This document shows positions 1,710 to 22,599 of a stretch of 33,054 bases of DNA, piece after piece; positions within the stretch are counted from its first letter, which is position 1; every line of letters starts with the position of its first letter. The stretch comes from Acholeplasma laidlawii (GTDB taxonomy: Bacteria > Bacillota_I > Bacilli_A > Acholeplasmatales > Acholeplasmataceae). The DNA is taken from NCBI RefSeq assembly GCF_015709225.1, contig NZ_JADNRS010000014.1:1-33054 (forward strand). Reading direction: 5' to 3'. The notes beneath the pieces were generated by a model. The model ran no database searches and was not told the origin of the DNA. It saw only the letters and a program-made list of their open reading frames with translations. The position numbers were made by a program, and so were the translations under genes.

Positions 1710-1976
1710 TCAACTTTTATTAAGCTGACTTTTAACGGTTTTAAAAGCCTCTTCAATTTCAATAACATCGCCTCTATTAACATCGCTTTCAGCTTCTGCA
1801 AGCATCTTAAGAAGCTCTAATTCTTCCATTTGTTGTTCATAAACCGTTTGATTAATGAGCACTGTATCATTTCTACCATTGACTGTGATATAGATCGGCT
1901 TTTGTTCATCTTTACCTTGTTTTGAAATTTCAGCATACTTATTTCTTAAGTCAGCCGAAGGTCTAATAATGTTCAT
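1710..1976 (-). CDS. Phd/YefM-family antitoxin
   Basis: An 88-residue antitoxin counted from the ATG at 1976; a GTG at 1985 would add three residues. The N-terminal half (IIRPSADLRNKYAEISK, then PIYITVNGRNDTVLINQTVYEQ) is the Phd/YefM DNA-binding fold. The acidic, helical C-terminus (ELELLKMLAEAESDVNRGDV) is the part that normally wraps and neutralises the toxin. The toxin gene follows after two bases but is broken, so this is an orphan antitoxin with an intact reading frame. In this family the antitoxin also represses its own promoter, which fits the palindrome just upstream. It may persist as an anti-toxin or anti-addiction relic; that is inference. Confidence 0.85.
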   Translation of the reverse strand: MNIIRPSADLRNKYAEISKQGKDEQKPIYITVNGRNDTVLINQTVYEQQMEELELLKMLAEAESDVNRGDVIEIEEAFKTVKSQLNKS

Positions 1977-1992
1977 ATTAACCACGTCTCAT

Positions 1993-2030
1993 ATATGCAT
2001 ATCATATCATAATTTGATTATTACTGTAAA
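1993..2030 (-). promoter_or_regulatory. Antitoxin promoter and candidate operator
   Basis: On the minus strand there is a -35 TTTACA (2025-2030), an 18-base spacer and a -10 TATGAT (2001-2006). A perfect palindrome ATATGCATAT (1993-2002) overlaps the -10, where a Phd/YefM repressor would be expected to bind. The boxes are seen; the operator role is inferred from family behaviour. Confidence 0.5.
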
Positions 2031-2070
2031 GTAAAAAGTTAGACACAAAATTTGTATCAAACCTTTTCTT

Positions 2071-2145
2071 ATTATATGTGTGATGCTACCTATTTTAATA
2101 CAAATTAGCACCTTACAAGATTTTTAGCACCCCTGTCAAAATACC
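2071..2145. repeat. TAGCACC-family repeat, copy B
   Basis: Nearly identical to the left-hand part of copy C (8725-8810) for about 40 bases: atatgtgtg, TGCTACC, tattttaatacaaat, TAGCACC. TAGCACC recurs at 2106-2112 and 2125-2131, about 19 bases apart, and a degenerate third unit may lie near 2143. TGCTA and TAGCA form an inverted pair around the AT-rich core. The third TAGCACC unit of copy C has decayed. No transposase frame adjoins this copy, so it is a solo end or a MITE-like remnant. Confidence 0.65.
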
Positions 2146-2339
2146 TTTATAAAGCAATCAAAACTATCTTTCATATGGTTTGATTTAAAGAAATTCATAA
2201 TTAAATTTAATGGTATAAACATGTAAAAATCAAACTTACATTAGGTAGTTAATGATCTATCCAATATAGAGTCATGTCTTATTTGATGAGACAGTAACTA
2301 CAAAAATATAAAGTACCAAAAATAGTGTCACAAGTTTAG

Positions 2340-2369
2340 TTGAATAATCTATAACTAATGTGTTATAAT
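2340..2369 (+). promoter_or_regulatory. Promoter of ABC exporter operon
   Basis: TTGAAT (2340-2345) is followed by an 18-base spacer and TATAAT (2364-2369), with an extended -10 TG one base before it. The GTG start of the first permease lies about 39 bases downstream behind a GAGGTGG ribosome site. This is a strong sigma-A-like promoter by sequence. Confidence 0.7.
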
Positions 2370-2407
2370 GAGGTTGTTGTGACATCTACACATTTTGAGG
2401 TGGTTGA

Positions 2408-3616
2408 GTGCTTTCGATTAAAATCGCATTGCAGTTTTTATGGCGAAACTTTGCAAAAACATGCATAACATTACTTGCAGTTGCATTAGGATTCGCTATT
2501 TTTTACTTTATTCTAGATGTCAGTTCAGGATTAAAATATATGGTTCTTCATACCACAGCAGAAACCGATGGTCACATTCGAATTCAAACAAATCTTCCCT
2601 ATGAATCATTTTCAGATCCAGATGCCATCGAACTTCGTGACGAATTGTTTTCACTTTCAAATGAAATCAGTGATGTCTCTTTTTCTTATCGTACATTAAT
2701 TACTTATGAAACTTTTCAAGATAACATGACATTTGAGCTTAGAGGGTTTGATTTTAATTTTGGAGCAAAAATAAGTGATATTGTCCATCGAATTAACTTA
2801 AATCCTGCAAATAAAATACCTGAGAATATGACTGAACAATCCCCTTCATATGATGGTGAAATTGCAGTTGGATTTCACTTTATGGATATACGGAAATTCC
2901 TTCAGATTGGTGATATTATTACAGTAAGAAATCAATTAGATCAACCATTTAATCTAAAAATTGTCGCAATATTTGTGAGTGATCAATCTGCACTTTCAGG
3001 TAATGTCTTTTTTACAACACAAGAAACTGCACAATTGATTGATGGTGTTTCAATCTTCAATTTTATTGAAGTTAGAACCCATAATCCTGTAAATAGCCAT
3101 CAAGTGACACCACTGTTGAAGGATTATAGTGAAGCCAATTTCACGAATTATATTATTAATGATTGGCAAGAAGGTAATCAAACAATCACTAATCTTCTCT
3201 ATATCGAGGATATTTCCGTTCTTCTCATTCAAGTAATGACTGGACTTGCTATTTCATTTGGAGTTGGTAGTGTCATCATGTTCCAAGCCAAACAAAAAAT
3301 CAATCAAATAGGAATACTTAAAGCATTAGGTGTAACCGATCGAGAATCACAATTAATCTTCTTTTATCAAGCATTATTAATAACGGTTATTGGACTTTTA
3401 TTGGGTTTAATAATCGGAGTCTCACTTGGTGCCTTCTTTACAACCAATTTTAGACGAGCGAGTGGTTTACCGTTAGTTCCGCTACAAACAGAATTAATCA
3501 ATTTCTATTCAATACTAACCATTTCAATCATGTTACCAGTCAATTTGATTGCATCACTGATTCCGATTCGTTTCGTTAAAAATTTAAAGATTATTGAGGT
3601 CATTAAACATGAGTAA
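2408..3616 (+). CDS. FtsX-like ABC exporter permease 1
   Basis: A 402-residue membrane permease of the MacB/FtsX/LolC-E class. It has one N-terminal transmembrane helix (about 11-33), a roughly 240-residue extracytoplasmic domain, and three C-terminal helices (about 270-295, 318-345, 365-388). Family members move lipoproteins or peptides, or relay mechanical force across the membrane. The start is a GTG with a GAGGTGG ribosome site; the same M-L-S-I-K-I-A-x-Q-F opening occurs in permease 2, which supports the start and makes the pair paralogous. The cytoplasmic ILKALGVTDRE loop near 303-313 matches the usual coupling segment (KxxGIxxxx). It is the first gene of a three-gene operon with the ATPase between two permeases. 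The substrate is unknown. Confidence 0.85.
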   Translation: MLSIKIALQFLWRNFAKTCITLLAVALGFAIFYFILDVSSGLKYMVLHTTAETDGHIRIQTNLPYESFSDPDAIELRDELFSLSNEISDVSFSYRTLITYETFQDNMTFELRGFDFNFGAKISDIVHRINLNPANKIPENMTEQSPSYDGEIAVGFHFMDIRKFLQIGDIITVRNQLDQPFNLKIVAIFVSDQSALSGNVFFTTQETAQLIDGVSIFNFIEVRTHNPVNSHQVTPLLKDYSEANFTNYIINDWQEGNQTITNLLYIEDISVLLIQVMTGLAISFGVGSVIMFQAKQKINQIGILKALGVTDRESQLIFFYQALLITVIGLLLGLIIGVSLGAFFTTNFRRASGLPLVPLQTELINFYSILTISIMLPVNLIASLIPIRFVKNLKIIEVIKHE

Positions 3617-4298
3617 TGAATTAATCCGAATTGAACATGTTACTAAAACATATGGAACTAAAATTAAAACAGATGTCTTAAAGGACATCAATTTAACATT
3701 TGAAAAAGGTTCGTTTAATTGGATTATTGGTGCTTCCGGTTCCGGAAAGACGACACTACTTAATATTATTAGTGGTCTTGATACGGCAACTTCTGGCAAA
3801 GTTAAGATTGATGGTATTGAACTTTCAACACTAAATATTAAGGAAAGAGCACATTTTCGTTCTACGCATTTAGGTTTCATTTTCCAATTTCACTATTTAC
3901 TTCCTGAGTTTACTGCTTTGCAAAACATATTAATGCCGTTAAGAATTCAGAAAAAGAAAATTGATCAGTCTGTTAAAGATCAAGCACTCGAATTGATGAA
4001 TGAGGTTGGTATTTCACATGTTTCACATCATTATCCAAATCAGATGAGTGGTGGGGAACAACAGCGTACCGCAGTTGCAAGAGCAATCATCGGTCAACCT
4101 CTGCTCATTCTAGCTGATGAACCAACAGGAAACCTAGATAGTCATTCTGCTGAATCGGTATATCAATTACTTCGTAAACTTCATCAAACTTATAAAACAA
4201 CATTCATTATTATTACTCACGATAAGATTACGCCAGAAAAAGGTGATCGTTTACTAACATTAAAAGATGGTACATTAATCAAGGATGTGATTTATTGA
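3609..4298 (+). CDS. ABC exporter ATPase, LolD/MacB-like
   Basis: A 229-residue ATP-binding subunit starting at the ATG at 3609, which overlaps the end of permease 1 by 8 bases; the TTG at 3594 is less likely. Visible motifs are Walker A GASGSGKTT (41-49), Q-loop FIFQFHYLLPEF, ABC signature MSGGEQQRTAVARAI, Walker B LLILADEPTGNLD and the H-loop histidine in IITHD. The Q-loop context HYLLPEFTALQN is very close to LolD-type ATPases. It powers the flanking FtsX-like permeases. In monoderms such cassettes handle antimicrobial peptides, lipoproteins or signalling; nothing here fixes the choice, and no adjacent sensor kinase is present. Confidence 0.92.
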   Translation: MSNELIRIEHVTKTYGTKIKTDVLKDINLTFEKGSFNWIIGASGSGKTTLLNIISGLDTATSGKVKIDGIELSTLNIKERAHFRSTHLGFIFQFHYLLPEFTALQNILMPLRIQKKKIDQSVKDQALELMNEVGISHVSHHYPNQMSGGEQQRTAVARAIIGQPLLILADEPTGNLDSHSAESVYQLLRKLHQTYKTTFIIITHDKITPEKGDRLLTLKDGTLIKDVIY

Positions 4299-7289: not shown

Positions 7290-8651
7290 TTATATATTAT
7301 TTAAAGAGCGATTTCTATAATCAATTGGATTCGTTTTTAATTTTAGAACGATTCTAGTGTTGTTATAGTATTCAATGTATTCATCAATACCTTTAATTAA
7401 TTCATCAGCTGAATTAAATTCATCTTCATGTCCATACCACATTTCATCTTTGATTCTGCCAAAAAAGTTTTCGGTCGGACTATTATCTAAACAGTTTCCT
7501 TTTCTACTCATGGATTGAATCATCCCTAATTCAATTAGTCTCTCTTGATATCTCGAATTTTGATATTGTATGCCTTGATCTGATTGGATCATCATACCCT
7601 CAATTTGATTCCCATGCTTTTGCTTCAATTGAGTCAGCATATGCATCACTTTATCGACCTTGGCATCTTTGGCTGCTACATAAGACAGAACTTCTCTGGT
7701 ATTAAAATCAATAACTGGAGATAAATAAACTGCTGCGTTTTTAACTCTAAACATTGTAATGTCTGTACCTGCCTTTTCAAAGGGTCTTGTTGTTATAAAT
7801 GTTTGTTTCATATGATTAGGCTTTACATATCCTTTATCCCCTTCATATGATGAGTATTTACGCCATTTCTTGCTTCTAAACTTAAGATATCCTTTGGCTC
7901 TCATAATCTCTAAAACTTTATTGTTTCCTATCTTATATCCTAAATTCTTTAATTCAATGTAAATCGCGTTGTAATGCTGTCTTTTTTTATGCTTCTTTAA
8001 ATATAACTCATCAATTTTATCTTCAATTTCTTGATACTTATTTACCTTGTTTTTAATGACTGATAGATTGTAATAATAAACCGATGGTGCCATCTTTATA
8101 AGGTCTAGAAGGTGCTCTAATTTATGTTTCTTCCTTAACCCTGCAACAATTAAAACTTTATCCTTATTTGTTGCCCCTTCTAACTTTTGGGTTAAGGACT
8201 GAGATTTTTTTAAGTATTCTATCTCTGCACGTAGTCGCTCGTTTTCTTCCTTTAATTTTTTATCTACGATATTTCTTGCTCGCTCATCTTTTAATACATA
8301 ATTCTTTCTTGGATAGGTATCTTGTACGCCTGCTTCACCTTTATTTTTATAGTTCTTAATCCAGTCTTGTAAAATGGTAGGATCTGTTAATCCAAAATCA
8401 AGCGCGACACTTCTGATTGATTCATTACCTTCAAGCACTCTTTTTATCGCCAATAGTTTGGTATCTCGATAGTATATCTTGCCTTCTCGATTCAAAAATA
8501 CCTCTGAACCGAATTTTTTGTACAAATTGACATTGTACTTAATATTACTGACATCGTAATTATCATATGCTTGTGATATATGTGATAGTGATTTACCTTT
8601 CAGTAAATGTTCCTCTACCATTTTTAATTTCATTTCCTGCGTGATTCTCAT
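7290..8651 (-). CDS. IS3-family transposase, single fused frame
   Basis: A 453-residue DDE transposase starting at ATG 8651 behind AGGGGAAC; the TTG at 8705 is a worse start. Two helix-turn-helix segments occupy about 1-110, a Lys/Glu-rich coiled coil about 125-150, and an IS150-type OrfB region follows. Catalytic acidic residues are D297 (AGTDITMF), D358 (IQSDQG) and E394 (SPTENFFGRIKDE). The 35 residues between D358 and E394 are the IS3 hallmark. Most IS3 elements split this protein into OrfA and OrfB joined by a -1 frameshift; here both are in one frame, as also reported for some mollicute IS elements. The frame is intact, so it may be active. Confidence 0.93.
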   Translation of the reverse strand: MRITQEMKLKMVEEHLLKGKSLSHISQAYDNYDVSNIKYNVNLYKKFGSEVFLNREGKIYYRDTKLLAIKRVLEGNESIRSVALDFGLTDPTILQDWIKNYKNKGEAGVQDTYPRKNYVLKDERARNIVDKKLKEENERLRAEIEYLKKSQSLTQKLEGATNKDKVLIVAGLRKKHKLEHLLDLIKMAPSVYYYNLSVIKNKVNKYQEIEDKIDELYLKKHKKRQHYNAIYIELKNLGYKIGNNKVLEIMRAKGYLKFRSKKWRKYSSYEGDKGYVKPNHMKQTFITTRPFEKAGTDITMFRVKNAAVYLSPVIDFNTREVLSYVAAKDAKVDKVMHMLTQLKQKHGNQIEGMMIQSDQGIQYQNSRYQERLIELGMIQSMSRKGNCLDNSPTENFFGRIKDEMWYGHEDEFNSADELIKGIDEYIEYYNNTRIVLKLKTNPIDYRNRSLNNI

Positions 8652-8689
8652 AAAAAAAGTTCCCCTATCTTTAGATTGGTTATATTCAT
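8648..8689 (-). CDS. Short leader peptide overlapping transposase start
   Basis: A 13-residue frame, MNITNLKIGELFL, starts at the ATG 8687-8689 behind a strong GGAGAAAGG site with a short spacer. Its TGA overlaps the transposase ATG (ATGA). The arrangement fits translational coupling that meters transposase synthesis. Whether the peptide itself matters is unknown, and the frame is too short to test by codon use. Confidence 0.4.
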   Translation of the reverse strand: MNITNLKIGELFL

Positions 8690-8724
8690 TATAACCTTTC
8701 TCCAAGATTTGGAAACTATTTCAT

Positions 8725-20325: not shown

Positions 20326-21517
20326 TTAATTATTCAGGTTATTTGCTTTGACCATACGTTTGATACGGTACATTTCTGTATCTGCTTGTCTTAATAAATC
20401 ATTGAGTGTCATCCCATGGAGTGGATACTCTGATAACCCAATAGATGCGTTTAAATTAAACACCTTGTTATCTAAATATATTTGACTTTCAATAGCATCG
20501 ATAATTCTATCAATTTTATGTTCCAGTGTATGAGATTTATCGTCTAAATTTAAAATAACAACAAACTCATCTCCCGCATAGCGTGTTACAAAATCTTCTT
20601 CATGTACTGTTTTTAGTAATCTTTTAGCAAGTTGATACAACACCTCATCACCAACAGTGTGTCCATAGTTATCATTGATATCCTTAAAATTATCAAGATC
20701 TATACACATAAGTGTAAACCGTTTATTATCAGTAATTTTAGTGTCGATTATTTTAGTTAAGTATCTTCTATTAGGTAAAGTAGTTAAATCATCATAATAC
20801 GCATAATCGGTCAGTTTTTCATTCATTTGATGCAAATTAGAGATATCAGTAAATGTAATAATAGCATGTTTTTGATCTACATAATTAATGACGGATATTG
20901 AAATAAGTGTTCTTATAATGCTACCATCTGATTTCACTACACTATATTCCATATTATGATATGGATTATTCGACGCCATCATCTGTTTAAATTCTGTTAA
21001 ATGACAGATTTCTTTAAATATTTTAAGTTCACAAACCTGACTTCCAAGTAACTCTTCAATTCTATAACCTAAAAAATCAGAAAATCGGGTATTTACATCG
21101 ACTACTTTCTTATTTTCATCAAGCATCAGCATTGAAACCGGTGAATGATGAAACCCACTATTAATTTTCTTTATTTCACCTCGAGCCCGATTATAGATTA
21201 AATTAGATACAATAAATGTTAAAAGTATCTGTAATAAGAAGGTAAAGATTACAGTGATTGTTTGACTGTCTTTAAGTTCACTATAAGAATTATTATCTCT
21301 AAATATGAACAATATGTGTAGCACTCTAAATGAATATAGTACTATGTAAAGTATCGTTGTAAAGTTTAGTAAAGGGTTTTACCCTCAATATCATCTCTTC
21401 TTAAATTTATAGTAATAGATGATCTCGCATAAATATAGATTAATGAGATATATAAGATGAGTACTTGTAAGTCTAATCTTTCATCTATGTATAAAAAATA
21501 ATTAAATTAAAAACCAT
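20326..21517 (-). pseudogene. PAS-GGDEF diguanylate cyclase, frameshifted N-terminus
   Basis: The open frame covers residues for one membrane helix, a PAS domain (SPVSMLMLDEN to ITFTDIS) and a GGDEF domain (DDLTTLPNRRYL to MYRIKR). The motif is A-G-D-E-F, a variant active in some cyclases; the RxxD inhibitory site is H-E-E-D, hence degenerate. The apparent GTG start (21324) has no ribosome site. Upstream, an ATG at 21517 with GGGGAG starts MVFNLIIF; a one-T gain in the T6 run (about 21494) continues it as LYIDERLDLQVLILYISLIYIY and RSSITINLRRDDIEGK, and a one-A gain in an A4 run (about 21382) joins it to NPLLNFTTILYIVLYSF and the rest. The repaired protein would be 397 residues. Either a pseudogene or two base-call errors. 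Confidence 0.75.
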
Positions 21518-21576
21518 ACTATCTCCCCTAGATGATTTCGTTAACTATATTATATCAATATTATAAAAAAGTGCAT

Positions 21577-21621: not shown

Positions 21622-22599
21622 TTAAATCCAATCTCCATTAAAAATAGAGTTTTTAACAATTACATAGTCAACTTTTGTAATTGCTTCAATATCTTTACCA
21701 CCTGCATAAGATATAGATGACTGTAAATCTTCAGTCATTTCTTTTAAGGTATCTTCTATTTTACCTTTGTAAGAAATTAAGATACGCTTACCTTCAACAT
21801 TGGTCTTTTCACCCTTTTGATATTCTGATGCTGAACCAAAATATTCTTTAAGTATTTTTCCATCTTCTTCAATTGTTTGTCCAGGTGATTCTTCATGTCC
21901 TGCAAATAAAAAACCGATCATAATCATAGATGCACCAAATCTGATAGATTTAGCAATATCACCATGCGTACGAATTCCACCATCTGCGATCATTGGTTTT
22001 CTAGCTACTTTACTGCAGCGAGAAAGTGCTGCTAATTGCCATCCACCTGTACCAAAACCCGTTTTAATTTTAGTGATACAAACCTTACCAGGACCAACCC
22101 CTACTTTTGTAGCATCAGCGCCAGCATTTTCGAGTTCTCTTACTGCTTCAGGCGTTGCAACATTACCCGCAATTAAAAATGATGTAGGTAAATGTTTTTT
22201 AATGTGTATAATCATGTCAATAACTAATTGACTATGACCATGTGCTATATCAATTGTAATATAGTCAGGAACTAAATTAAGTCTTGATAGTTCTTCAACA
22301 AAATCATATTCTTGTGGTTTCACACCAACAGAAATCGATGTATACAAGTTAAGTTCCTTCATCTTTTTCATAAAAGGAATACGTGATGCTTCATCAAATC
22401 TATGCATGATATAAAAATAATCATGACTTGCTAACCAGATTGCTAACTTTTCATCAATAATGGTTGCCATGTTTGCTGGAACTACTGGAAGTTTAAATCT
22501 TCTGGGTCCAAATTGAACAGATGTATCACATTCACTTCTAGATTTTACAATACTTTTAGAAGGAATAAGTTGAATATCTTCGTAGTCAAAAACTTTCAT
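21622..22599 (-). CDS. guaC: GMP reductase
   Basis: A 325-residue IMPDH/GMPR-family TIM barrel that deaminates GMP to IMP with NADPH, linking guanine to adenine nucleotides. The catalytic loop is [12 protein letters not shown] with C174; [14 protein letters not shown] and [19 protein letters not shown] are present. The absence of CBS domains and the length fit GuaC (bacterial type 2) rather than IMP dehydrogenase. Single gene with its own terminator. In purine-scavenging mollicutes it is useful for interconversion. Confidence 0.96.

Follow-up and report, generated by a model that had tools for sequence, protein, structure and literature searches.

The window, by which we mean the whole stretch of DNA analysed (33,054 nucleotides), belongs to an Acholeplasma genome of 1.33 Mb in 55 contigs (99.7% complete). 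A PAS-GGDEF gene lies on its minus strand, downstream of an intact gene of the IMPDH/GMP-reductase type (Table 1). The surviving open reading frame (ORF) consists of ~16 unconstrained residues, one membrane helix (residues 25–43), a PAS domain (58–161) and a GGDEF domain (175–323). Pfam matches were obtained with PF00990 (2e-41) and PF00989 (6e-10); the PF00990 match scored 141.8 bits against a cut-off of 23.8 and covered positions 1–156 of the 161 in the profile. The GGDEF motif of the ORF is RYAGDEF, an AGDEF variant, and the catalytic motifs are intact. AGDEF is an active variant of the GG(D/E)EF-type motif (PMC10333796). By its full GGDEF domain and its motif the product is a predicted diguanylate cyclase, and the PAS domain and AGDEF motif named in the preliminary description are confirmed.

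Table 1. Features of the PAS-GGDEF locus in the window and of other GGDEF/EAL genes in the same genome (contigs labelled C).
Feature	Position	Strand	Description
Surviving ORF	20326..21324	(-)	332 aa from GTG 21324; PAS + GGDEF domains
Membrane-sensor remnant	21325..21495	(-)	Out of frame; homologous to A. laidlawii residues from ~115 on; near-neutral divergence
Second lesion	21374..21377	(-)	Loss of one base, from alignment with A. laidlawii (ACCC here versus ACACA there)
Original start	21485..21517	(-)	ATG 21517 preceded by AGGGGAG; now reads MVFNLIIFYT (10 codons) up to a TAG stop (21487-21485); ATG and ribosome-binding site shared with A. laidlawii
Deletion joint	21496..21504	(-)	Single copy of the 9-bp TAATTATTT; two copies in the A. 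laidlawii gene, 304 bp apart, one at each end of the missing piece
Upstream neighbour	21622..22599	(-)	IMPDH/GMP-reductase type, intact; 98% identical to A. laidlawii; same neighbour there and in three other intact relatives
EAL gene	C43		616 bp of the 5' half lost at a 12-bp repeat
GGDEF-EAL gene	C48 (165500-170500; gene 3235-1625)	minus	92.5% identity to A. laidlawii from end to end; single GAA-to-TAA at ~codon 99
5TMR-GGDEF-HD gene	C4 (45500-49249; gene near 1713-3728)	plus	ATG to ATA; AAAGGAG to AAAAGAG
GGDEF/EAL genes	C30, C21, C45, C37		Fragments only

The locus was compared with those of seven same-genus relatives (eight Acholeplasma genomes in total). The nearest orthologue (locus L007 of genome G005, which was taken as A. 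laidlawii) encodes a protein of 506 residues that is 85% identical and lies at the same genomic place, beside the same IMPDH-type neighbour; unlike the window gene, it is intact and has a full membrane N-terminus. In four further species the protein is intact too (502–508 residues) and has a membrane N-terminus of this kind; in three of them the gene lies beside the IMPDH-type neighbour. None of the intact relatives (five species) starts at the equivalent of GTG 21324, and the DNA upstream of this codon in the window is homologous to their membrane N-terminus. The preliminary description had placed the true N-terminus upstream of the GTG, behind a proper ATG with GGGGAG, and had proposed a comparison with related strains as a test; the proposal survived comparison with these species, the upstream frame being similar to other GGDEF proteins and ATG 21517 standing directly after AGGGGAG. 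A search of genome contigs for a second strain of the species matched only distant GGDEF proteins. Compared with its intact orthologues, the window gene has a broken frame, as a pseudogene would. It lacks the ~190-residue multi-pass N-terminus, in frame with PAS-GGDEF, that characterizes membrane-sensor PAS diguanylate cyclases of the 506-residue type; one helix is left in the ORF.

Pairwise affine-gap alignment with the intact A. laidlawii gene showed that 304 bp are missing shortly after the ATG (MAFFT, run on the DNA, put the gap in the wrong place). The first 700 nt of the A. laidlawii gene contain just three repeat pairs of 9-bp length, and the pair found at the ends of the missing piece is one of them; junction microhomology of at least 9 bp occurred in 1.2e-4 of random deletions of 200–900 bp at the locus. 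The alternative that A. laidlawii had acquired these 304 bp by insertion was considered and rejected, the full N-terminus being present in four other species; the deletion is, for this reason, the derived state. The piece was probably lost between the short direct repeats via slipped pairing or a similar repeat recombination, as the joint indicates. The first break had been put down to a single-base change in a T6 run near 21494. It is a large deletion instead, and one added T rescues the frame by coincidence: 304 does not divide by three (304 mod 3 = 1), which is why the deletion is out of frame and why a single base restores it.

Downstream, one base has been lost relative to A. laidlawii. 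The alignment places this loss between 21376 and 21375, beside an A4 run (AAAACACA in A. laidlawii versus AAAAC-CC here), with an in-frame TAA (21381-21379) just upstream. A one-base change in the A4 run near 21382 had been suggested; the loss of one base is borne out, but its site inside the run is not. Homopolymer changes therefore do not account for the first break and describe the second only roughly. The arithmetic by which two added bases give 397 residues is correct, and two hydrophobic stretches are indeed present in the remnant (19-residue means 1.7 and 2.0), but the ancestral protein of 506 residues is not restored: as judged from the alignment, the 'repaired' protein would still miss ~100 sensor residues.

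The start of translation is the weakest step of the proposed product, GTG 21324 and TTG 21312 both being without a clear ribosome-binding site: no good one was found before either codon. Promoter-like sites near GTG 21324 were at chance level (five found, 4.3 expected).

Selection was estimated from codon divergence between the window gene and that of A. laidlawii. The remnant, read in its ancestral frame (78 codons), gave a dN/dS of 0.53 (95% interval 0.29–0.92) with 35 residue changes against 37 expected under neutrality, and the chemical severity of the changes was also at chance level. The downstream 313 codons (last helix, PAS and GGDEF) gave 0.088 (0.056–0.13) and contained no stops. The two parts differed in nonsynonymous changes (Fisher p 5e-10) and not in synonymous ones (0.17); against the first 32 conserved codons the remnant differed with p 5e-4. 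The best boundary between the two regimes fell at ORF residue 16, and the unconstrained stretch runs on past GTG 21324 to ~21279. Between the window gene and A. laidlawii the last helix is 90% identical and the remnant 56%, whereas in comparisons of A. laidlawii with the other intact orthologues the helix is the least conserved part (10–17% identity, against 11–28% in the remnant region). On this codon divergence, selection on the sensor end appears to have lapsed long before that on the enzyme end. The preliminary description had judged the damage recent or artificial and had offered phase-variation sites as one explanation; for the 5' end, where the remnant has diverged like unconstrained DNA, neither recent nor artificial damage is likely, and phase variation is not supported.

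Several observations temper the contrast. The old frame of the remnant is still free of stops, where full neutrality predicts 2.3 (P 0.09). Changes in the remnant that were assigned to branches with distant outgroups split 5 versus 9 sites and do not single out one branch, so that part of the contrast in dN/dS may come from the intact sensor having evolved faster in A. laidlawii. In the related gene on C4 the sensor part likewise evolves faster than GGDEF (0.14 versus 0.055). Loss of constraint on what remains, a further mark of a pseudogene, is seen in the remnant and not in the 313 codons, but a low dN/dS is no proof of present function, because the dead fragment on C45 (79 codons) is also low (0.15).

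The A. laidlawii network comprises 14 GGDEF/EAL proteins (PMC2408644); 13 of the GGDEF/EAL genes of A. laidlawii were compared with the genome under study. Eleven of the 13 are deleted, truncated, stopped or without a start codon here, three of the 13 being absent, and only a gene on C23 and a degenerate-GGDEF gene on C12 are whole. The lesions differ from gene to gene (Table 1). The TAA stop on C48 is a very fresh lesion; on C4 the ribosome-binding site is weakened as well as the start codon lost, and the next in-frame start lies ~60 codons further in. Among the neighbouring genes in the same stretches, 49/52 are full length (Fisher p 3e-8; the 52 were counted by hand and picked by convenience, all from the stretches compared), and all three response regulators are kept at full length. 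The pattern of broken genes is biological and genome-wide.

We consider it probable, on these comparisons, that the lineage is in the course of a stepwise loss of c-di-GMP signalling and that the enzyme half of this gene outlived its membrane sensor. A membrane-bound PAS diguanylate cyclase gene in an Acholeplasma close to A. laidlawii has lost most of its N-terminal sensor, the 304-bp deletion and the downstream one-base deletion together cutting the original start off from the rest of the gene. The enzyme half would still have been made long after this, from GTG 21324, from TTG 21312 or by reinitiation, because purifying selection continued to act on the helix, PAS and GGDEF as the remnant changed almost or wholly free of constraint. 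The product would likely be a one-helix PAS-GGDEF protein, constitutive or differently regulated, without the multi-pass sensor. Since nearly all other GGDEF/EAL genes are broken and their neighbours intact, we infer a network-wide loss in the lineage of the window gene; this gene may be one of the last to survive it, or may have fallen to it very recently.

The main competing explanation, to which we would give a substantial though less than even chance, is that the whole gene is dead, the sensor having evolved fast beforehand and the PAS-GGDEF frame being open only through very recent inactivation. The poor start signals of the surviving frame would fit, as would the death of most sister genes, some of them very recently (the GGDEF-EAL gene on C48), the low dN/dS of a fragment that is clearly dead and the faster pace of the sensor parts on C4. 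Yet the divergence of the remnant goes far beyond what the ratio of sensor to GGDEF on C4 predicts, and it looks neutral, which needs time; in that time the 313 downstream codons should have gained many changes and stops, but they have a dN/dS of 0.088 and no stop. A sequencing or assembly error, with the gene intact in the organism, seems highly improbable: the assembly is a draft and the one-base loss lies near a homopolymer, but a 304-bp deletion with a 9-bp repeat joint and a neutral-looking remnant is unlike base-call errors, and independent lesions have struck other c-di-GMP genes while their neighbours are nearly all intact. Least probable of all is phase variation, in which the length of a homopolymer would reversibly toggle an intact, full-length frame. 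T6 and A4 runs do lie near the breaks; they are short, however, the missing base is aligned next to the A4 run and not in it, and no change in the T run restores the ancestral protein when the first break is a large deletion.

Truncation with loss of the sensor is a known kind of event. N-terminal truncations of ycgG in E. coli arose by independent deletions that remove the membrane sensor, and the catalytic part still works (PMC10333796), as proposed here for the window gene; ycgG, however, encodes a phosphodiesterase of the EAL type, and its shortened form is reported to function (PMC10333796), whereas the present GGDEF protein is predicted from sequence and has a weak start signal. Without a sensor, GGDEF domains often have lower activity (PMC10333796). 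Many c-di-GMP genes have been lost with a change of lifestyle in the decay of the Shigella network and in the phosphodiesterase loss of Yersinia pestis (PMC10333796); here the organism is a wall-less mollicute, and the lesions are mainly deletions, some at short direct repeats. Repeats at deletion ends in a reducing genome, as found here, have also been described in fish-adapted Streptococcus agalactiae (PMC3637634), although the present case concerns another organism and repeats of 9–12 bp in c-di-GMP genes.

On the favoured reading of stepwise network loss, what was suspected to be a sequencing error becomes a set of ordered events, in which a sensor was lost through a repeat, the enzyme half survived and one second-messenger system disappeared almost completely. 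The loss falls between two close species, with neighbouring genes and response regulators kept. It is conceivable, though we think it rather unlikely, that shedding of sensors is itself a stage of network loss, the last active enzymes including sensor-less cores (from the present gene and the EAL gene on C43, both cut short by a deletion at a short direct repeat) that are unregulated and hold a basal c-di-GMP level. The genus could reveal the steps by which a c-di-GMP network is taken apart and which receptor, if there is one, continues to respond to it: a search of the eight Acholeplasma genomes found no PilZ domain, despite up to 15 GGDEF hits.

Another genome of the genus (G001) gave two GGDEF and two EAL hits, against 8–15 GGDEF hits in the other seven genomes; its network seems to have been lost independently. 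Synonymous divergence from A. laidlawii varies from gene to gene: 0.02–0.07 in some genes, 0.2–0.5 in most and 0.8–1.3 in the PAS-GGDEF gene of the window and the EAL gene on C43. The pattern was seen at positions 7290-8705 of the window, at L133:1953-3035 and in neighbours in L147 and L151, and suggests recent homologous exchange in places. The gene on C23, the sole dedicated GGDEF gene that is whole, sits in a stretch of low divergence.
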